DNA from: Ramlibacter albus
GTDB lineage: Bacteria; Pseudomonadota; Gammaproteobacteria; Burkholderiales; Burkholderiaceae_C
Reading direction: 5' to 3'
NCBI RefSeq assembly: GCF_014297445.1
Contig: NZ_JACORU010000001.1
Location: 1,178,001-1,242,000 of the forward strand
Length of the DNA: 64,000 nt
Shown here one piece after another: positions 13,751 through 45,455 of the stretch. Below the pieces are notes generated by a model, which saw only the letters and a list, made by a program, of their open reading frames with translations, was not told where the DNA came from and ran no database searches. The translations under genes were made by a program, and so were the position numbers. Every line of letters begins with the position of its first letter. The first letter of the stretch is position 1.

Positions 13751-14890
13751 ATGGGTCGGAAGCCGCGCGTCGTTGTGGGTCTGAGCGGGGGCGTCGACTC
13801 CGCGGTCAGCGCGCACCTGTTGAAGCAACAGGGCTACGACGTCGTCGGCATCTTCATGAAGAACTGGGAAGACGACGACGACAGCGAGTACTGCTCCTCC
13901 AACGAGGACTTCGTCGACGCCGCCAGCGTGGCGGACGTGATCGGCATCGAGATCGAGCACGTCAACTTCGCCGCCGAATACAAGGACCGCGTCTTCGCCG
14001 AGTTCCTGCGCGAATACCAGGCCGGCCGCACGCCCAACCCCGACGTGCTGTGCAACGCGGAGATCAAGTTCAAGGCCTTCCTCGACCACGCGATGCGCCT
14101 GGGCGCGGAGAAGATCGCCACCGGCCACTACGCGCGGGTGCGCGAGCGCAGCGGCCGGTTCGAGCTGCTCAAGGGCCTGGACGACACCAAGGACCAGAGC
14201 TACTTCCTGCACCGGCTGAACCAGGCGCAGCTGTCCAAGACGCTGTTCCCGGTCGGCGAAATCCGCAAGACGGAAGTGCGGCGCATCGCCGCCGAGATCG
14301 GGCTGCCCAACGCGAAGAAGAAGGATTCGACCGGCATCTGCTTCATCGGCGAGCGGCCGTTCCGCGAGTTCCTCAATCGCTACATCGCGAAGGAGCCGGG
14401 GCCGATCAAGGACGAGAAGGGCCGCACGATCGGCAGGCACGTGGGCCTGAGCTTCTACACGCTGGGGCAGCGGCAGGGGCTGGGCATCGGCGGCATCAAG
14501 GAGAAGGGTGCGCAGCGCGGTGGCGGCGAACACGCCCCGTGGTTCGTCGCGCGCAAGGACATCGAGAAGAACACGCTGTGGGTGGTGCAGGGGCACGACC
14601 ATCCGTGGCTGCTGTCGCCGTCGCTGCACGCGGATGACGCGAGCTGGATCGCGGGCGAGCCACCAGCTCCGGGCGAGTACGGCGCGAAGACGCGCTATCG
14701 GCAGGCGGATGCGGCCTGCACGTTGTCGGCCGCTGAAGGTGGCGCGTTCAACCTGGAATTCGCGGACCCGCAATGGGCGGTGACGCCCGGCCAATCCGCC
14801 GTGCTGTACGACGGCGAAGTGTGTCTCGGCGGCGGTGTGATCGCAGCCGCCGCGGCCGTCACTCCTCGACCTTCCGGTCTTCCTGCTTAG
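13751..14890 (+). CDS. mnmA: tRNA-specific 2-thiouridylase
   Basis: Installs sulfur at C2 of the wobble uridine (s2U34) of tRNA-Lys, -Glu and -Gln using the TusE relay and ATP. The 379-residue protein has the PP-loop GLSGGVDS (10-17), the catalytic Cys in [10 protein letters not shown] (Cys101), the second Cys in DSTGICFIG (Cys197), and [15 protein letters not shown] for tRNA binding. Length is family-typical; about 15 C-terminal residues ([16 protein letters not shown]) look lineage-specific. Solitary, transcribed away from the LysR gene. Confidence 0.97.
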
Positions 14891-14946
14891 CCTGCTGCAT
14901 CGCCTCGGGCTCCAGCTTCTCGGCGAAGCTGTTCGGGCTCCCGGCC

Positions 14947-15369
14947 TCAAGGCCGGTAACGGTACAGCGCCGCGTGCTCCATCGTGTACTCGGCAAGCGG
15001 CCCCACCTGAACCTGCATCGGGTCCAGCTGCTCGGCGGGTTTCATGTACGCGAAGGCCTGGCGGACCTCCGAGACGGCGTCGCGGCGGCGGATGCCGATC
15101 AGCACGCGGCGGTAGCCATCGGGTTCGTTCACCCGCTCCAGCGCGTCCATCGCCGCGAGTGCCGTCGCGTCCACTTCGAACACCTGGCCCACGACCTCGT
15201 GCCCCGTGCCCGGCGTGTCGATCATCCACGGCACGTGCCGCTCGCCGACGAGGTACATCGGGTAGCGCTCCTGCGTGACGAAGTCGCCCACCACGCGCCG
15301 CCCGGTGTTGAAGCCGAAGTTGGGGAAGCCTTGCTTGAGCGTGCCGAAGACGAAGACGAGGTGGGCCAT
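14947..15369 (-). CDS. gamma-glutamylcyclotransferase-like (AIG2/GGACT family)
   Basis: A 140-residue protein with the substrate-binding VFGTLKQG motif (residues 7-14) and a catalytic-type Glu in ALERVNEPDGYRR (about 77-89), as in the GGCT fold that releases 5-oxoproline from gamma-glutamyl amines. Exact substrate unknown. It is immediately downstream of the low-GC island and convergent with mnmA. Confidence 0.8.
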   Translation of the reverse strand: MAHLVFVFGTLKQGFPNFGFNTGRRVVGDFVTQERYPMYLVGERHVPWMIDTPGTGHEVVGQVFEVDATALAAMDALERVNEPDGYRRVLIGIRRRDAVSEVRQAFAYMKPAEQLDPMQVQVGPLAEYTMEHAALYRYRP

Positions 15370-37686: not shown

Positions 37687-39039
37687 TTACCTCACAGCCC
37701 GCTGCGCCAGCACACGGTCCACCATCACCCCCGCCTGCCCGAGGTTCCGGCCCGGGTCGCAGAACCCCTCGAGCTGCGCCCGCGTGACGTGCTTCGAGAT
37801 CTCCGGGTGGGCGGCCAGGAAGTCGATCAGCGGGCGGTTCTCCGAGATGGCCTGGCGGCACAGGTCGTAGACAAGGTCGTGCGCATACTCGCGGCCGATG
37901 TACGGGCCCAGGCCCATCATCACCGCCTCGGACATCACCAGGCCGTTGGTCATGTCGATGTTGGCACGCATGCGCGTGGCGTCCACCTCGAGCCCCTTCA
38001 GCACGAACTTCGCCTGCTTGAGCGCGCCCGACATCAGGCAGAAGATTTCCGGCAGCACCACCCACTCGATCTCCCACGGACCGGTGGAGCGCTCATGGTC
38101 GGCGACCATGGCGTCCATCAGCGCAGCCGCATGCTGCCGCGCAACCGAGATGTTCGCGTGGATGTACAGGCACGAAATCGGGTTGCGCTTCTGCGGCATG
38201 GTCGACGACGAGCCGCGGCCGGGCGCGTAGGGCTCGAACACCTCGGCCACTTCGGTTTGCATCATCAGCTTGACGTCCATCGCGATCTTGCCGAGCGAGC
38301 CGCCCACGAGGCCGAGGAACGCGCCGACTTCCGCGATCGTGTCGCGCACCGTGTGCCATGAGATGAGGGGCTGCGCGAGGCCAAGCTCCTTCATGAGCGC
38401 GGCCTGCGTTTCCATCGCGCCTTTTTCCAGCGACGACAACGTGCCCGAGGCGCCGCCGAACTCGCCCATGAGCACGCGCGGCTTCAGTTGCTGCAGGCGC
38501 TCGCGGTGGCGGTCGATGCCCGCCAGGATCGACGCCATCTTGTAGCCGAACGTGATCGGCGTGGCCTGCTGCAGGTTCGAGCGGCCGATGATCGGCGTGT
38601 CGCGGTACTTGCGCGCGAGCGCGGCGAGTGCCTCGCCGATCTCGTCCAGGTCTCGCTCCACGAGTGCGAGGCTCTCGCGAATCTGCAGCACTGTGGCGGT
38701 GTCCGTGATGTCCTGCGTGGTGGCGCCCCAGTGGCAGTACTCGCCGAGCCCGCCGCGGCAATTCGCGTTGATCTGGTTGACCACCGCGATGATCGGGTAG
38801 CCGATCTGCTCGGTCTTCGCCTTGAGCTTCGCCCAGTCGATCTGCGAGAGCTCGCAGTTCTTCACGATCTCGTCGGCGGCTTCCTGGGGGATGATGCCGA
38901 GCTGCCCCTGCACCTTGGCGAGGGCGCGCTCGATGTCGAGGTACTTGGCGGTGCGGTTCTCGTCGGACCAGACGTCGCGCATGCGCGCGTCGCTGAACAT
39001 GTCGCCGAAGATGCGCGAGTCGATGATGGTGGAGGCCAT
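37687..39039 (-). CDS. PurB/PcaB-family lyase (fumarase/aspartase superfamily)
   Basis: A 450-residue lyase. It carries the superfamily signature GSSSTMPQKRNP, the preceding HWGATTQDITDTA and SNLQQATPITFGYKMA, and the C-terminal lyase cap. The superfamily performs reversible beta-elimination releasing fumarate or a related diacid (adenylosuccinate lyase) or cycloisomerisation (carboxymuconate). It is the last gene of the prpF-bug-hydratase-CoA-transferase operon, so a catabolic diacid is a better guess than purine synthesis. 22 bases separate it from the CoA-transferase gene. Confidence 0.85.
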   Translation of the reverse strand: MASTIIDSRIFGDMFSDARMRDVWSDENRTAKYLDIERALAKVQGQLGIIPQEAADEIVKNCELSQIDWAKLKAKTEQIGYPIIAVVNQINANCRGGLGEYCHWGATTQDITDTATVLQIRESLALVERDLDEIGEALAALARKYRDTPIIGRSNLQQATPITFGYKMASILAGIDRHRERLQQLKPRVLMGEFGGASGTLSSLEKGAMETQAALMKELGLAQPLISWHTVRDTIAEVGAFLGLVGGSLGKIAMDVKLMMQTEVAEVFEPYAPGRGSSSTMPQKRNPISCLYIHANISVARQHAAALMDAMVADHERSTGPWEIEWVVLPEIFCLMSGALKQAKFVLKGLEVDATRMRANIDMTNGLVMSEAVMMGLGPYIGREYAHDLVYDLCRQAISENRPLIDFLAAHPEISKHVTRAQLEGFCDPGRNLGQAGVMVDRVLAQRAVR

Positions 39040-39061
39040 GGTGTTCGTCTTTCTCTCGATG

Positions 39062-40252
39062 TCAGACTGCCTGCGCTGCGTGCAGGCGCTGGATGTCCGC
39101 GGCGCCGTAGCCCAGCTCCGCGAGGATTGCGTCGGTATGTTCGCCCAACGCGGGCACCGGGTCCATGCGCGGCGGCACGTCCCAGCTGCCGGGTGGCAGC
39201 ATCGCGGGCAGCGGCCCCTTCGGTGAACCGATCTCGGTCCAGCGGCCACGGGCCTTCAGCTGCGGGTGCGACCACACTTCGCGCATCGTGTTGACCTGCG
39301 CGTTGGCGATCTGCGCGGCTTCGAGGCGCTCGAGCACCTGCGCGGCGGTGAGCGACGAGAACGCATCGACGATGATCGCCCGCAGCGCGTCGCGCTCGGC
39401 CACGCGCTTGTAGTTGGCGGTGAAGCGCGCATCGGTGGCGAGCGCCGGCTGCAGCAGGACCTTCTCGCAGAAGGCCATCCACTCGCGCTCGTTCTGCAGG
39501 CCGAGCATCACGACGCCGCCGTCGCCCGCGGGGAACGGCCCGTACGGGTAGATCGTCGCGTGCGCCGCACCGGTGCGCGGCGGCGGCTCGGCGCCCTCGA
39601 ACGCGTAGTACAGCGGGTAGCTGGTCCACTCGGCGAGCGACTCCAGCATCGAGATGTCGATGCGCTGCCCCTTGCCGGTCTGGCCACGCTGCAACAGCGC
39701 CGCGAGGATGTTCGTGTACGCGTACATGCCGGCGGCGATGTCCGCGATGGAAGGGCCGGCCTTGCACGGCTCGTCGGGCGTGCCGGTCACCGACACGAAA
39801 CCCGCCTCGCTCTGGATCAGCAGGTCGTAGGCTTTCTTGTCGCGATAGGGGCCGGGGTTATCCGGGTCGTCGCCATAGCCCGAGATGTCGCAGACGATGA
39901 GGCCGGGCTTGAGCTTCGACAATCGCTCATAGCCGAGGCCGAGGCGTGCCGCCGCGCCGGGCGCCAGGTTCTGCACCACCACGTCGGCCTTCTCGATGAC
40001 GAGGCGCTCCAGCACCTTCGCGGCCTCGGCGTGCTTCACGTCGAGCGTCAGGCTTTCCTTGGAACGGTTCGTCCAGACGAAGTGCGAGGCGAGGCCGCGC
40101 ACGCGCTGGTCGTAGCCGCGCGCGAAGTCACCCGAGCCCGGCCGTTCGATCTTGATGACGCGCGCGCCGAGGTCGGCCAGCTGGCGCGTGGCGAACGGCG
40201 CGGCGATCGCGTGTTCGAGCGTGACGACGGTGAGGCCCTTTAGGGGTTGCAT
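39062..40252 (-). CDS. CaiB/BaiF-family CoA-transferase
   Basis: A 396-residue class III CoA-transferase with the catalytic Asp171 in GPSIADIAAGMYA, plus SKESLTLDVKHAEAAKVLER, VVVQNLAPGAAARLGLGYER and YGPFPAGDGGVVMLG. It probably activates a diacid as its CoA ester, using succinyl-CoA or similar as donor. It sits between a hydratase and a lyase in one operon (gap to hydratase 12 bp). Donor and acceptor are inferred. Confidence 0.92.
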   Translation of the reverse strand: MQPLKGLTVVTLEHAIAAPFATRQLADLGARVIKIERPGSGDFARGYDQRVRGLASHFVWTNRSKESLTLDVKHAEAAKVLERLVIEKADVVVQNLAPGAAARLGLGYERLSKLKPGLIVCDISGYGDDPDNPGPYRDKKAYDLLIQSEAGFVSVTGTPDEPCKAGPSIADIAAGMYAYTNILAALLQRGQTGKGQRIDISMLESLAEWTSYPLYYAFEGAEPPPRTGAAHATIYPYGPFPAGDGGVVMLGLQNEREWMAFCEKVLLQPALATDARFTANYKRVAERDALRAIIVDAFSSLTAAQVLERLEAAQIANAQVNTMREVWSHPQLKARGRWTEIGSPKGPLPAMLPPGSWDVPPRMDPVPALGEHTDAILAELGYGAADIQRLHAAQAV

Positions 40253-40264
40253 GGTCAGGTTCCT

Positions 40265-41125
40265 TCAGCGAAGCGTCGCGACCGCGTCCATCGTGAGCCA
40301 GCCCTCATGGTCCTGCGCCCACAGCTTGATCGTCTTGCCGTCCGGCTGCACCTGCCCGTTGACGCGGAAGGGGTGCAGGTCGAACGTCGGCCGCACCGCT
40401 CGGAAGCGGAACGTCGCCACGTCGGCGCCGGGCGCGTTCCTGCGCACCAGGTCCATGAGCAGCGTCGCGATCAGCGGGCCGTGGACGATGAGGCCCGGGT
40501 AGCCCTCCACTTCCGTCACGTACTTGCGGTCGTAGTGGATGCGGTGGCCGTTGAACGTCAACGCCGAATAGCGGAACAGCAGCACGTCGTCGGGCACGAT
40601 CTCGCGCTGCCACGCCGCGCCCGTGGGCGCCGGTTGCGGCGGCGGCTCGACGTCGTCCGCGCGCTTGGGCTCGCGGTAAACGATGTCGTGGAATTCCACG
40701 ATCGCCGGGTCGGCAGCGCCGTTGCAGCGCACTTCGTGGCGAACCTTCACGAACACGAGCTTGCCCGTGCGGCCGTCCTTCTCCGTCACGTCGGCGATGG
40801 TGGAGGTGCGCTCCACGGCGTCACCCACGCGCACCGGCGAGCGGAACTCGAACTGGCTGCCAGCCCACATGCGCCGCGGCAGCGGCACGGGGGGCAGGAA
40901 GCCGCCGCGCTTCGCATGGCCGTCGGCGCCGATCTCGCTCTGGCGATGCAGCGGCAGGAAGTAGAGCCAGTGCCACAAGGGATGCAGCGCGTCGCCGTCG
41001 GCGGCCAGCGCGGCCTCGTGGTCCAGCGTGGCGTTCAGCGCATTGACCGGCGTTGCGCCGATGCGGTCCCGCACCGTCTCGCTGCGGCCGACCCACGCTC
41101 GCAGGTCGTTGGAAGCGGCTTCCAT
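40265..41125 (-). CDS. HTD2/MaoC-type hydratase (mesaconyl-/itaconyl-CoA hydratase-like)
   Basis: A 286-residue protein with two hotdog halves. The N-terminal half has MWAGSQFEFRSPVRVGDAVE; the C-terminal half has FRYSALTFNGHRIHYDRKYV and GLIVHGPLIATLLMDLVRRN, the pattern of FAS1-like/HTD2 hydratases that include mesaconyl-C4-CoA and itaconyl-CoA hydratases. It follows the Bug gene after five bases and precedes the CoA-transferase. Together they suggest activation and hydration of an unsaturated diacid. Confidence 0.88.
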   Translation of the reverse strand: MEAASNDLRAWVGRSETVRDRIGATPVNALNATLDHEAALAADGDALHPLWHWLYFLPLHRQSEIGADGHAKRGGFLPPVPLPRRMWAGSQFEFRSPVRVGDAVERTSTIADVTEKDGRTGKLVFVKVRHEVRCNGAADPAIVEFHDIVYREPKRADDVEPPPQPAPTGAAWQREIVPDDVLLFRYSALTFNGHRIHYDRKYVTEVEGYPGLIVHGPLIATLLMDLVRRNAPGADVATFRFRAVRPTFDLHPFRVNGQVQPDGKTIKLWAQDHEGWLTMDAVATLR

Positions 41126-41130
41126 CGCGC

Positions 41131-42090
41131 TCACTCCGCCGTCAGCTTGGCGCGCTGCACAACGCCCTTCCACTTGGCCAGCTCGCTCTTCACGAGCTCG
41201 CCGAAGCGCTCCGGCGTGCTGGTCTCGACTTCGGCGCCGTGTTCCTGGATGCGCTTGATGGTCTCCTTGTCGGCCAGCACCTGGTTCAGCGCCTTGTTGA
41301 TCTGGTCGATGACGGGCTTGGGCGTCTTGGCCGGCGCGAAGAAGCCGTACCACTGCTGCACGTCCACACCGTCCACGCCGGCTTCCTTCAGCGTCGGCAC
41401 GTCGGGCAGCAGCGGCGAGCGCTTCGGGCCCGCGACCGCGAGGGCCTTCAGCTTGCCCGACTTCACGTACGGCATCGCCGTGAACAGGCTCGGGAACATG
41501 AACTGCGTCTGCCCGCCGATGGTGTCCGTGATGGCCGGGGCCGAGCCGCGGTACGGCGCACCGATCATCTTCACGCCGGCGTTCAGCTTGAAGAGCTCGG
41601 CGGCGAAGTGCGGCGCGGTGCCGTTGCCGGCCGACGCGTAGGCGAACTTGTCCGGCTTGGCCTTCAGCTGCGTCACCAGGTCCTTCACGTCCTTCACCGC
41701 GACCGTGGGGTTGGCGACCATCAAGGTGGGCGAGTTCGCCACCAGGCCGATGGGCGCGAAGTCCGCGACCGGGTCGTAGCGCAGCTTCTGCAGCGCGGGG
41801 TTCATCGCGTGCGTCGCGATGTAGCCGAACATCAGCGTGTGGCCGTCGGCCGGGGCGCGTGCGACGAATTCGCTCGCGATGGCGCCGTTCGCGCCGGCGC
41901 GGTTGTCCACGATGATCTGCTGGCCCAGCAGCGGCCCCAGCTTCTGCGCGATGGTGCGCGCCATGGCGTCGTTGCCGCCGCCGGCGGCCGTCGGCACCAC
42001 CAGCGTGATGGGCTTCTCGGGGTAGGCCGCCATGGCGGGCGTGGCGGCGATCATGGCCGCGGCAACGGCGGGCGCGATGAAGCGTTTCAT
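41131..42090 (-). CDS. Bug/TctC binding protein of the catabolic operon
   Basis: A 319-residue periplasmic receptor with signal peptide MKRFIAPAVAAAMIAATPA MAA and TctC features (YPEKPITLVVPTAAGGGNDA, VDNRAGANGAIASEFVARAP, MIGAPYRGSAPAITDTIGGQ). It has its own ribosome site (GAAGGAGACAAACCC then ATG). Unusually, the prpF frame runs straight into it without a stop, so a 685-residue fusion is also open. Its place in the operon suggests it captures the pathway substrate. Confidence 0.92.
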   Translation of the reverse strand: MKRFIAPAVAAAMIAATPAMAAYPEKPITLVVPTAAGGGNDAMARTIAQKLGPLLGQQIIVDNRAGANGAIASEFVARAPADGHTLMFGYIATHAMNPALQKLRYDPVADFAPIGLVANSPTLMVANPTVAVKDVKDLVTQLKAKPDKFAYASAGNGTAPHFAAELFKLNAGVKMIGAPYRGSAPAITDTIGGQTQFMFPSLFTAMPYVKSGKLKALAVAGPKRSPLLPDVPTLKEAGVDGVDVQQWYGFFAPAKTPKPVIDQINKALNQVLADKETIKRIQEHGAEVETSTPERFGELVKSELAKWKGVVQRAKLTAE

Positions 42091-43188
42091 GGGTTTGTCT
42101 CCTTCGGGAACGTTCGAAAACACATAGGGTGGGAGGTGCAGGTCGCCCTGCAGGATCTTTCGCGCGGTGCGCACGAGCGCGGCGCGCTGCACGCGCGCCT
42201 CGTCGCCCGCACCTTCGACGGTGACTTCGATCTCGATGCGGCCTTGCGGGTGCAGCACGGCGATGGAACGCACGCCGGCGCGGCGCGTGCGGCCGCTCGC
42301 GACGGTGCCGGGCAGCGCGAAGGCCGTGGCGACACCGATCGCGCCCGTCACCGCGTGCGATGCGTGGCAGCGGCGCGGCGTGAAGTAACGCGAGGTGATG
42401 CTGTCCGCGTCGTCGCCGTCGCTGGCGATCACCGGCTTGGGCACGACGCTGCCGGACACGTCGCCCAGGCCCATCGCTTCGCCTGCGGCGCAGCGGATCT
42501 TTTCGATGCGTGCCATCAGTGCCGCATCGGCATCGAGCTCGGCGGGCAACTCGCGGCCGGTGAGGCCGAGGTCACGGGCGCGCATGATCACCAGCGGCAT
42601 GGCGGCATCGATGCAGGTCACCTCGATGCCTTCGATCGTGTCGATTCTGTGGCCGGTGGGGAACAGCGAGCCAGTCACCGCACCCCAAGCGTCCAGGAAA
42701 TTCAGGCGGATGGGCGCGGCCGTGCCCGCCACGCCGTCGATGCCGGTGTCGCCGTCGTATTGCACGCGGCGGCCGGGCGTCTGCACGGTCACGTCGATGC
42801 GCGAGCGCGTGTTCACGTTGAACACCCGAACGGTCGTCTCACCTTCCTTTACGGCAACGAGCCCCTGCTCGATGGCAAACGGCGCGACGCCGGAGAGCAT
42901 GTTCCCGCAGTTCGGCCGCGTGTCGACCGACTTCTGGCCCACGCCGACTTGCGCGAAGAGGTAGTCCACGTCGCAACCCGGTTGCGACGACTTCGAGACG
43001 ATCGCGACCTTGCTGGTCAGCGTGCTGCCGCCGCCCACGCCGTCCACCTGCAGCAGGTCCGACGCACCGATGGCGCCGATGAGCGCTTCGTCGCGGGCCG
43101 TCTCGTCCGCGGGCAGCCACTCGCGCAGGAAGAAGGGCCCGCGCGACGTGCCGGCGCGCATCAGAACACAGGGGATGGTTCGTTGCAT
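42091..43188 (-). CDS. PrpF-like isomerase; frame continues into bug without a stop
   Basis: About 366 residues of the PrpF/4-oxalomesaconate tautomerase family: MQRTIPCVLMRAGTSRGPFF at the start, RPNCGNMLSG and PRRCHASHAVTGAIGVATAF. These enzymes move double bonds in 2-methylaconitate or oxalomesaconate using paired base residues. The family ends near LHLPPYVFS; here no stop follows and the frame reads NVPEGDKPMKRF into the Bug signal peptide. No Shine-Dalgarno is seen; a 7-bp hairpin (43189-43206) abuts the ATG. First gene of the operon. Confidence 0.88.
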
Positions 43189-43206
43189 GGGCCGAATGAT
43201 CGGCCC
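43189..43206 (-). promoter_or_regulatory. hairpin abutting the prpF start codon
   Basis: A perfect inverted repeat GGGCCGA/TCGGCCC with a 4-base loop ends one base before the ATG and occupies the place where a ribosome site would be. A second perfect palindrome ATTCAC-AAA-GTGAAT lies at 43211-43225. Both are in the untranslated leader or promoter of the operon. Confidence 0.4.
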
Positions 43207-43221
43207 GGCGATTCACAAAGT

Positions 43222-43247
43222 GAATTGCATCTTTCAGATCAACTGAT
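43222..43247 (-). promoter_or_regulatory. LysR-type operator upstream of prpF (copy 1)
   Basis: Read toward prpF it contains TTGATCTGAAAGATGCAA. It matches 25 of 26 positions of the element at 44203-44228, which is placed the same way relative to the porin. The core ATCTT-T-(A/C)AGAT is a near palindrome and contains a T-N11-A pattern typical of LysR sites. TTGATC may also serve as -35. Confidence 0.7.
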
Positions 43248-43259
43248 GCGCCACCAACA

Positions 43260-44168
43260 TCAGTGGGCGCGACGCTTGCGGCGCAACTCGAGAAAGAGGT
43301 CGAACAGCTGCTGCGCCGCGGGTGACAGGCTGCGGCTGCGGCGGCGGATCAGGCCCATCTTGCGGGTGACCACCGGGTCGACGAGCGGCACACTGACGAG
43401 CAGGGGGTGGTCGGCCGCCGGCATGGCCATCGCCGGGACCGCGGCGACGCCCAGCCCCGCTTCGACAAGGCCGAGGGCCGTGGTCACGTGCTGCGTCTCG
43501 TAAGCCGCCACCGGCCGCTTCTTCACGCTCGCGAGCGCCTGGTCCAGCAGCAGCCGGTTGCCCGACGAGCGGCTGACCGAAATGAAGTCGTGCGCCTGCA
43601 GGGCCTCCCACGACACGCGCTTCATGCGGGCCACGGGGTGGTCGCGGCGGCATGCGGCGACGAAACGCTCCTCCGCGATGGCCGTGAACTCCAGCTCGGC
43701 TTCCTGCACGCCCATGAAGTTCAGGCCGAAGTCCGCCTCGCCGCGCGCCACGGTGGCCAGCACTTCGTTGGCACCGGCGTCGAGCAGCTTCACGCGCACG
43801 TTGGGGCTGCGCTCGTGGAAATCGTGCAGCACGCGAGAGAGGTAGTAGTTGACGGTGGACGGCACGCAGGCCACGGTGACTTCGCTCATGCGCGTGGCCG
43901 CCGCGCCCTTGATCCCGAGCAGGGTGTGATCGAGTTCGTCCAGCAGCTCCCGCACCTTGCGCTCGAAGTCGCGGCCGACGGCCGTCAGCGTGACGCGCCG
44001 CGTGGTGCGCTCCAGCAGCCGCACGCCCAGCGCCTCTTCCAGCTTGTCGATGCGGCGGCTGAACGCCGGCTGCGACAGGTGCACGGCGTCGGCGGCGCGC
44101 CGGAAGTTGGCCAGTTCCGCCACCGTGCGGAAGGCGACGAGGTCGTTCAGGTCGAAGTGCATCGGCAT
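43260..44168 (-). CDS. LysR-family regulator of the porin and prpF operon
   Basis: A 302-residue LTTR: HTH region FRTVAELANFRRAADAVHLS followed by QPAFSRRIDKLEEALGVRLL, then a ligand-binding domain (VNYYLSRVLHDFHERSPNVR). GGGGAG lies six bases before the chosen ATG. The gene is flanked by two inverted copies of one palindromic element, in front of the catabolic operon downstream and of the porin on the other side, so it most likely regulates both and its own promoter region. Confidence 0.92.
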   Translation of the reverse strand: MPMHFDLNDLVAFRTVAELANFRRAADAVHLSQPAFSRRIDKLEEALGVRLLERTTRRVTLTAVGRDFERKVRELLDELDHTLLGIKGAAATRMSEVTVACVPSTVNYYLSRVLHDFHERSPNVRVKLLDAGANEVLATVARGEADFGLNFMGVQEAELEFTAIAEERFVAACRRDHPVARMKRVSWEALQAHDFISVSRSSGNRLLLDQALASVKKRPVAAYETQHVTTALGLVEAGLGVAAVPAMAMPAADHPLLVSVPLVDPVVTRKMGLIRRRSRSLSPAAQQLFDLFLELRRKRRAH

Positions 44169-44202
44169 CGCGGGCTCCCCGGCGCATTGATGCGCCATGG
44201 CT

Positions 44203-44228
44203 ATCAGTTGATCTTAAAGATGCAATTC
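44203..44228 (+). promoter_or_regulatory. LysR-type operator upstream of the porin (copy 2)
   Basis: Contains TTGATCTTAAAGATGCAA; the core ATCTT-T-AAGAT (read on the minus strand) is a perfect palindrome. It lies 54 bases before the porin start and 34 bases from the lysR start. It differs from copy 1 at a single base. Confidence 0.7.
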
Positions 44229-44282
44229 CGTTTTGCAATGCCGGCCGCGAAGATCGAGCTCATCAACATTGGAGATAACCGC

Positions 44283-45455
44283 ATGAAGAGAAACCTCGTG
44301 GCCCTCGGCCTGCTCGCCGCCGCCGGCACCGCCTCCGCGCAATCCTCGGTGACCCTCGGGGGCATCATCGACACCGGCGTCACCTTCGGCCGCGGCAGCG
44401 TGGCCGACCGGGTGCAGCTGACGAGCGGCAACATGGCCACGTCGCGGCTGATCTTCCGCGGCACCGAAGACCTGGGCGGCGGGCTGTCCGCGTCGTTCTG
44501 GCTCGAAGCCGGCCTGAACATCGACGACGGCAGCGGCCAGGCCACCAACACCAACAACCAGACCAGCGGCGGCAACTTGAGCTGCACGGTCGCGACGACC
44601 ACCACGACGGCCACCACGGCCAACCCCGCGATCGCCGGCACCGCGCTCACCTCCACGTCCACCAGCACGAGCACCTGCACGCCCGCGATCAACGGCGCGC
44701 AAGGCATGACGTTCAACCGCCGTTCGACGGTGAGCCTGGCCGGCGGCTGGGGCGAGGTGCGCCTGGGCCGCGACTACGTGCCGCAGTACTGGAACCGCAG
44801 CGTCTTCGACCCCTTCGGCATCGTCGGCGTCGGCCAGACGGTGATCAGCAACCTCAACATCACCGGCATCACGTCGGTGCGTGCATCCAACAGCATCGGC
44901 TACCTGCTGCCCGGCTCGCTGGGCGGCTGGTACGGCCAGGCGATGTACCACCTCGGCGAGAACGCGGGCAACGTCGGCGTGACCAAGCGCGACGGCTCGG
45001 GCTACGGCGTTCGCATCGGCTATGCCGCGGGCCCTTTCAACATCGCTGCCGCCACCGGCTACACGCGCTATGCCGCGGGTGCGGTGCACCAGAGCAACAT
45101 CGGCGGCCGCTGGGACTTCGCCATGGTCAAGCTGATGGCGCAGTACGAGCGCGAGCGCGCGGGTTTGCGTGAAGCGGACGGCTGGCTCGTGGGCGGCCTC
45201 GTGCCGGTCGGTGCGGGCGAAGTGCGCGTGTCGTACTCCCGCTTCCACATCGACCCGCCCGGCAACGTGGCGGAGCCGCGCGCGACCAAGATCGCGCTGG
45301 GCTACGTGCACAACCTGAGCAAGCGCACCGCGCTGTACGCCACCTATGCGCGCGTGCGCAACAGCGCCGGCGGCACGCTGGGCCTCGGCGGTGCGACGAC
45401 GGCTGCCAACCAGGGCTCGAGCGGGCTGGACCTGGGCATTCGCCACACCTTCTGA
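44283..45455 (+). CDS. outer-membrane porin (Gram-negative, Burkholderiales type)
   Basis: A 390-residue beta-barrel porin with a signal peptide (KRNLVALGLLAAAGTASAQ), SSVTLGGIIDTGVTFGRGSV at the mature start, NRRSTVSLAGGWGEVRLGRD and a C-terminal Phe in GLDLGIRHTF for Bam recognition. A Thr/Ser-rich loop with two Cys (SCTVATTTTTATTANPAIAG region) is a probable extracellular or constriction loop. Its operator suggests it admits the substrate of the prpF operon. Confidence 0.93.
   Translation: MKRNLVALGLLAAAGTASAQSSVTLGGIIDTGVTFGRGSVADRVQLTSGNMATSRLIFRGTEDLGGGLSASFWLEAGLNIDDGSGQATNTNNQTSGGNLSCTVATTTTTATTANPAIAGTALTSTSTSTSTCTPAINGAQGMTFNRRSTVSLAGGWGEVRLGRDYVPQYWNRSVFDPFGIVGVGQTVISNLNITGITSVRASNSIGYLLPGSLGGWYGQAMYHLGENAGNVGVTKRDGSGYGVRIGYAAGPFNIAAATGYTRYAAGAVHQSNIGGRWDFAMVKLMAQYERERAGLREADGWLVGGLVPVGAGEVRVSYSRFHIDPPGNVAEPRATKIALGYVHNLSKRTALYATYARVRNSAGGTLGLGGATTAANQGSSGLDLGIRHTF

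Follow-up and report, generated by a model that had tools for sequence, protein, structure and literature searches.

Two nearly identical, inverted elements on either side of a lysR gene of Ramlibacter albus are very probably complete LysR-type operator-promoter units, by which a single regulator would control both a porin and a catabolic operon for one acid. The elements are located in a stretch of 64,000 nucleotides (nt), the whole of which is referred to as the window. Judging from the enzyme families encoded, the common ligand is probably an unsaturated di- or tricarboxylate.

Twin elements on either side of lysR

The elements and the genes around them are the following:

37687..39039, minus strand: lyase of the adenylosuccinate lyase / carboxymuconate cycloisomerase superfamily (profile match; scanned from a longer ORF start at 39249)
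39062..40252, minus strand: family III CoA-transferase (CaiB; profile match)
40265..41107, minus strand: MaoC-like hydratase, FAS1_DH region (extent of the homology with relatives; start approximate)
41131..43188, minus strand: a single ORF encoding PrpF and the TctC/Bug solute receptor
43196..43224, minus strand: predicted prpF promoter TTCACT-N17-GATCAT, 7 nt upstream of the prpF ATG
43217-43247 and 44203-44233: arms of an inverted repeat (31 nt, 90% complementary, 955 nt apart)
43222..43247, minus strand: predicted left 26-bp operator core, pointing to prpF
43242..43264, minus strand: predicted left recognition dyad ACTGAT-N11-ATCAGT, overlapping the lysR stop codon
43260..44168, minus strand: lysR, LysR-type regulator (Pfam HTH_1 5.2e-22, LysR_substrate 6.8e-47; scanned from a longer ORF start at 44198)
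44186..44208, plus strand: predicted right recognition dyad ATTGAT-N11-ATCAGT
44203..44228, plus strand: predicted right 26-bp operator core, pointing to the porin
44226..44254, plus strand: predicted porin promoter TTCCGT-N17-GAAGAT
44229..44264, plus strand: putative relic prpF leader between the right operator and the porin ribosome-binding site, assigned by flank identity to locus L178
44283..45455, plus strand: porin of the Gram-negative porin family (Pfam Porin_4 4.9e-60)

The Pfam scan in the window covered six cluster ORFs. Past the left element, the operon order is prpF-Bug, MaoC, CaiB, and lyase; the porin lies past the right element. The conserved start codon of lysR is the ATG at 44166-44168, and its stop codon is at 43260-43262. 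PrpF is of the 4-oxalomesaconate-tautomerase type (NCBIfam OMA_tautomer, 492 bits at a cut-off of 440).

As an earlier note on this DNA had claimed, a 26-bp element occurs twice with one mismatch, inverted around lysR: the cores at 43222-43247 (minus strand) and 44203-44228 (plus strand) have 25 of 26 bases in common. Each faces outward from lysR, the left one toward the prpF ATG at 43188 (distance 33 nt) and the right one toward the porin ATG at 44283 (54 nt). The note had also considered such a pair unlikely by chance, which was confirmed by an expectation of approximately 3e-7 in 1.3 kb of DNA of the same composition. The own genome (6.15 Mb) was searched with a 25-base pattern, allowing 3 mismatches, and with a less strict 26-base motif, allowing 2; each matched at these two places only, and a reversed control pattern gave zero matches.

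Two further claims concerned the makeup of the element. The palindrome ATCTT-T-AAGAT, which it was said to contain, did not hold up as its defining feature: in the window, a perfect ATCTT-N-AAGAT is present in the right copy only, and among the relatives described below it is found in 12 of 75 upstream sites. The palindrome was therefore rejected as the operator. The proposed T-N11-A pattern was found as a conserved dyad, but this dyad is partly outside the 26-bp element that was said to contain it.

The site and its regulator in related genomes

Searches of the genus, the family, and genome contigs recovered this orthologue at 82 loci besides the window, with identical lysR DNA kept once. Ramlibacter, Aquabacterium, Albitalea, Rhizobacter, and Piscinibacter were among the taxa matched. 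Excluded from the counts were LysR homologues of approximately 50% identity (L049-L052, L094), weaker matches (L096-L112), and L228, the stretch of which contains no LysR orthologue. The window itself was excluded from the counts over 82, 75, 74, and 8 loci. A site was counted when it had at most 2 mismatches and pointed away from lysR.

Such a site is located upstream of lysR in 75 of the 82 loci. A divergent prpF (56 loci) or Bug gene (16 loci) starts within 400 nt of lysR in 72/82 loci, and site and divergent gene occur together in 68/82. In seven of the 75 loci, the site is present but neither prpF nor Bug starts that close (L201, L203, L080, L086, L089, L090, and L091). An upstream site within 2 mismatches is missing from the other seven (L191, L197, L204, L206, L209, L213, and L225); in the L191 genome, the site is found at an unlinked prpF instead, and L197 carries one copy at prpF and another, containing 1 mismatch, at MaoC. 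The sites, with their conserved architecture, are restricted to these genes, and the recognition-helix core of LysR is near-invariant: the residues of SQPAFSRRI, its sequence in the window, are 97-100% conserved in the 82 loci. The median identity of the window LysR to these proteins is 83% in the winged helix-turn-helix and 69% in the effector domain.

Genome-wide searches were performed with the exact motif ATCARTYGWT-N9-GCAATTC. It gave 43 matches in 36 of 399 family genomes, while the reversed motif gave none in the same 399. Within 250 nt of lysR lie 38 of the 43 matches, 33 of them upstream and 5 downstream of the gene, one of the latter being that of the window. The five matches elsewhere precede prpF (L260, L197), the MaoC-CaiB-lyase genes (L261, L192), or an unlinked porin (L228). 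In an order sample, one match was obtained in 299 genomes other than the own one, 8 of which are family members; this sole order-level match, L263, falls inside a 518-codon open frame (L263 was inspected for open frames only).

These data also bear on whether a regulator other than this LysR uses the sites. A LysR orthologue was found in 58 of the 399 family genomes, and 22 of these 58 have no exact site, which speaks for another regulator. Against it, all 36 genomes with an exact site contain the orthologue (E below 1e-110), and this holds even in L260, where prpF with its site is approximately 830 kb away from lysR. In addition, the dyad has the T-N11-A form of LysR-type sites. We therefore regard a different regulator as very unlikely.

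A second site at lysR-adjacent porins

In 8 of the 82 loci, the gene immediately after lysR is a porin gene on the same strand (L033, L035, L172, L174, L180, L181, L182, and L088). All eight have a second site after lysR that points at the porin, versus 0 of the 74 others. Fisher's test for this association gave 2.8e-11 with kinship ignored. On the tree, the correlation corresponds to approximately five changes, with one independent pair on supported branches and five on all branches, too few for a phylogenetic sign test to reach 0.05. In 19 further loci, a porin gene lies on the operon strand approximately 3.3 kb from lysR and may share the prpF promoter.

The porins with a site are no single close group: identity to the window porin is 66% for L033, 30-35% for the seven other lysR-adjacent porins, and 28% for the unlinked porin of L228. 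Another porin, with 64% identity to that of the window, is encoded elsewhere in its genome (G000:C23:355683-356864), and the own-genome pattern search found no operator there.

The earlier note had predicted that one LysR serves outer-membrane entry, periplasmic capture, and breakdown of one compound. Since the relatives keep the element along with the genes, both upstream of lysR (75/82) and at the porin (8/8 versus 0/74), the comparison supports this reading of a shared LysR wiring.

Predicted operator-promoter architecture

A scan of positions 43100-44400 for sigma-70 promoters and terminators found nothing, and the promoter at the twin sites is visible only through alignment. In a core-anchored alignment, the 75 upstream sites have in common the dyad ATTGAT-N11-ATCAAT, TGCAATTCACA, and, 17 nt further on, a -10 box with A2 and T6. 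The full unit spans approximately 69 bp, in which the dyad is followed by an activation half that covers the -35 box and then by the -10 box. The -10 box (A2, T6) at 17-nt spacing is present in 74/75 upstream sites and in 8/8 porin sites of the relatives; the dyad arms match at 5 to 6 of 6 positions in 54/75 and 8/8, respectively.

The start of prpF was compared with the -10 box at 43186-43201 of the window and at the equivalent place of 52 relatives. The -10 box ends 6 to 8 nt before the prpF start, and the first ATG is found there in 48 of 52 prpF-first loci. Of the four others, L173 and L224 have their first ATG in another reading frame and a further ATG at 7 nt (read by eye), and L207 and L208 have a GTG 7 nt after the -10 box. 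Because the start codon follows the conserved -10 box at this short distance, the prpF mRNA is predicted to be leaderless across the family. The same distance places the dyad center at -65 from the predicted transcription start, which is the classical LysR position. In the ordinary LysR-type layout, the regulator gene and its target operon are divergent, with a recognition binding site (RBS) near -65 and an activation binding site (ABS) near -35. If the predicted -10 and -35 boxes are right, the RBS of the window would be near -65 and the ABS would overlap the -35 box.

We propose the following mechanism. The LysR protein encoded between the two units would bind the ATTGAT-N11-ATCAAT dyad, a recognition site centered 65 bp before the predicted start. 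When bearing its ligand, it would also occupy the half next to TGCAATTC, which overlaps the -35 box, and would so recruit RNA polymerase to the -10 box seventeen bases downstream. One unit would drive the prpF-Bug-MaoC-CaiB-lyase operon and the other one the porin, and a single regulator would thereby govern how one organic acid enters through the outer membrane, is captured in the periplasm, and is broken down. Binding and activation by LysR are here predictions from sequence comparison.

The reversed lysR and the history of the layout

In the window, lysR is reversed: prpF follows lysR and the porin is divergent from it, a layout present in 1 of 83 loci. Neither a prpF following lysR nor a divergent porin was found in the 82 other loci. 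Both window copies appear to be prpF-type promoters. The right flank (44229-44254) is identical at 24 of 26 positions to the prpF leader of L178, whereas the best porin-type leader reaches 10/26; as a control, the best of 2000 shuffles reached 17/26 (mean, 11). The left flank matches the prpF leader of L037 at 21/26 and the best porin-type leader at 13/26. At 44262-44264, 7 nt after the -10 box, where prpF genes start, the sequence reads ATC. The right copy would thus be a relic prpF leader with a porin behind it. The earlier note had spoken of a duplicated operator; a simple local duplication is improbable, because the left and right flanks are each most like the prpF leader of another locus and the orientation of lysR is reversed.

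The favored explanation of the layout, toward which we lean slightly, is that the pair did not arise by local duplication: a lysR from another lineage would have arrived reversed, bringing along a divergent prpF promoter of its own. The porin would then have come to lie downstream of the incoming promoter, and the older lysR would have disappeared, while the older prpF promoter remained in place. This is compatible with one regulator serving both promoters. It agrees with the unique tandem arrangement of lysR and prpF, with the divergent porin, and with the origin of the two flanks in different prpF leaders. It also agrees with the relationships of the proteins: of the residues found only in L036-L039, the window has 1/9 in LysR versus 53/55 in the lyase, 4/5 in CaiB, and 1/1 in PrpF, and in trees, PrpF and CaiB group with L036-L039 (SH-aLRT 97 and 99), whereas LysR does not. 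On the other hand, an AU test does not reject a grouping of LysR with these loci (p 0.43). The window LysR is a long branch with a weakly supported place, and no close donor was found, the best match to any locus compared being 81%. Furthermore, Bug (1/4) and MaoC (0/2) also lack most or all of the private residues, the operon being a mosaic in any case, and the genus contains several LysR types, which makes the native one uncertain. As to the mosaic, which extends over 37687-44168, PrpF, CaiB, and the lyase are 89-94% identical to L036-L039, and Bug and MaoC are 93% identical to Ramlibacter sp. WS9 (L035/L067).

Alternatively, lysR could have been flipped by recombination between inverted operators in an L033-like ancestor, where lysR lay between two sites with prpF beyond one and the porin beyond the other. 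This unflipped arrangement is seen in L033, which has two outward sites and the 66% identical porin, and near identity over 26-31 bp suffices for rare recombination. Under this scenario, lysR could in principle still flip, with both operators kept in either orientation. However, if the flip had occurred within the core, the right flank should be porin-type, and the flank found is prpF-type (24 versus 10 of 26). For this reason a simple flip is disfavored, and since the window LysR is also not especially close to that of L033 (81%), we consider this history unlikely. The inverted arms flanking a single gene could also suggest the ends of a small mobile element carrying lysR. This idea was rejected as highly improbable, because only two copies were found in the genome within the mismatch limits searched, the same kind of site stands singly before prpF or Bug in most relatives, and the conserved columns are those of an operator and promoter.

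Returning to the arrival of a reversed lysR, the newcomer could have read the old prpF promoter, because the operator and the recognition helix are nearly frozen in the family. The twin operator may then be the fossil of a regulator replacement by promoter capture, with the 69-bp cassette handed to porins and split-off operons and with a leaderless prpF mRNA. We offer this combined account tentatively, with confidence just short of even.

The PrpF-Bug ORF and a CitE-like gene in relatives

PrpF, a cytoplasmic enzyme, and the periplasmic Bug receptor are encoded by one uninterrupted ORF in 49 of the 68 loci with Bug after prpF, including the window (41131-43188, minus strand), L033, L035-L039, and L172-L174. 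The fusion state changed approximately three times on the PrpF tree. An internal signal-peptide-like stretch is kept in 36/49 fused ORFs (31 detected by pattern and 5 by eye); in the window, it begins at 42090 (read by eye). A stretch resembling a ribosome-binding site before a start codon near the junction is present in 38/49. Candidate products are one chain (685 residues in the window), two chains, or a chain cut by signal peptidase. In 13 fused ORFs (L043-L047, L183, L187, L197, L205, L215, L216, L080, and L089), the linker shows no signal peptide, and these are therefore likely to be real cytoplasmic PrpF-Bug fusions. Ten of the 13 loci have a second Bug divergent from lysR, which is a candidate for transport.

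In L036, a CitE-like (HpcH/HpaI) gene is located between CaiB and the lyase (14200-15012). Many relatives have CitE-sized gaps at this place, and the gene is missing in some others. The gap in the window (39040-39061, approximately 20 nt) does not fit a CitE-like gene, and the best HpcH/HpaI relative in the own genome (52%) is encoded elsewhere.

Comparison with known systems

Clusters for the degradation of itaconate and mesaconate encode a CoA-transferase, a MaoC-type hydratase, and a CitE lyase (PMC12290011, as far as its available text goes). All three families are present in relatives such as L036, as CaiB, MaoC/FAS1_DH, and HpcH/HpaI. Unlike the clusters described in that text, the window adds PrpF, Bug, and the adenylosuccinate-type lyase and has no CitE-like gene at the CaiB-lyase gap.

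In the literature covered, which left out most subscription journals, we found no description of this cluster, of the cassette, of the reversed layout, or of a PrpF-TctC fusion; the available parts of PMC5373536 and PMC6449761 do not treat the cluster. A guess from raw sequence has led to a family-wide, testable regulon with an exact predicted operator, promoter, and member genes. It offers a route to the substrate, since any porin or operon bearing the site becomes a candidate for the same pathway. It also provides a natural example in which to study how a porin is brought into a regulon, and how one regulator might replace another and still reach the same target genes.

The LigB type is the dioxygenase family of the gallate enzyme. 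No LigB-type dioxygenase was found in the window; six matches are present in the genome, the nearest approximately 35 kb beyond the window. GalB and GalC types were not found among the six cluster ORFs scanned. The label of a gallate regulon was rejected, since the window contains no LigB-type dioxygenase and its enzyme content differs.

The GalR regulon of Pseudomonas putida, which serves gallate, comprises galT, galA, galP, galR, galB, galC, and galD (PMC9942251). In the available part of that report, two intergenic regions were compared, and an RBS with T-N11-A and an ABS were predicted by alignment, the sites being uncharacterized. Like that regulon, the window clusters a LysR-type regulator, a 4-oxalomesaconate tautomerase (GalD there), and an outer-membrane porin (GalP there); in the window the three are neighbors, and the sites suggest their common control. 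In contrast to the GalR regulon, the window set includes Bug, MaoC, CaiB, and the adenylosuccinate-type lyase, joined in some relatives by the CitE-like gene, and lysR itself lies between the two sites. As far as the available text of PMC9942251 describes it, the closest regulatory arrangement known is that of GalR in P. putida.

The ordinary divergent LysR layout is that of the 68/82 relatives in which a site is combined with a divergent prpF or Bug gene at most 400 nt from lysR. The window differs from it by its reversed lysR and by a second full predicted operator that would serve the porin. The proposed mechanism is conventional and its wiring of a kind already known (compare GalR), and it is the history that is unusual.
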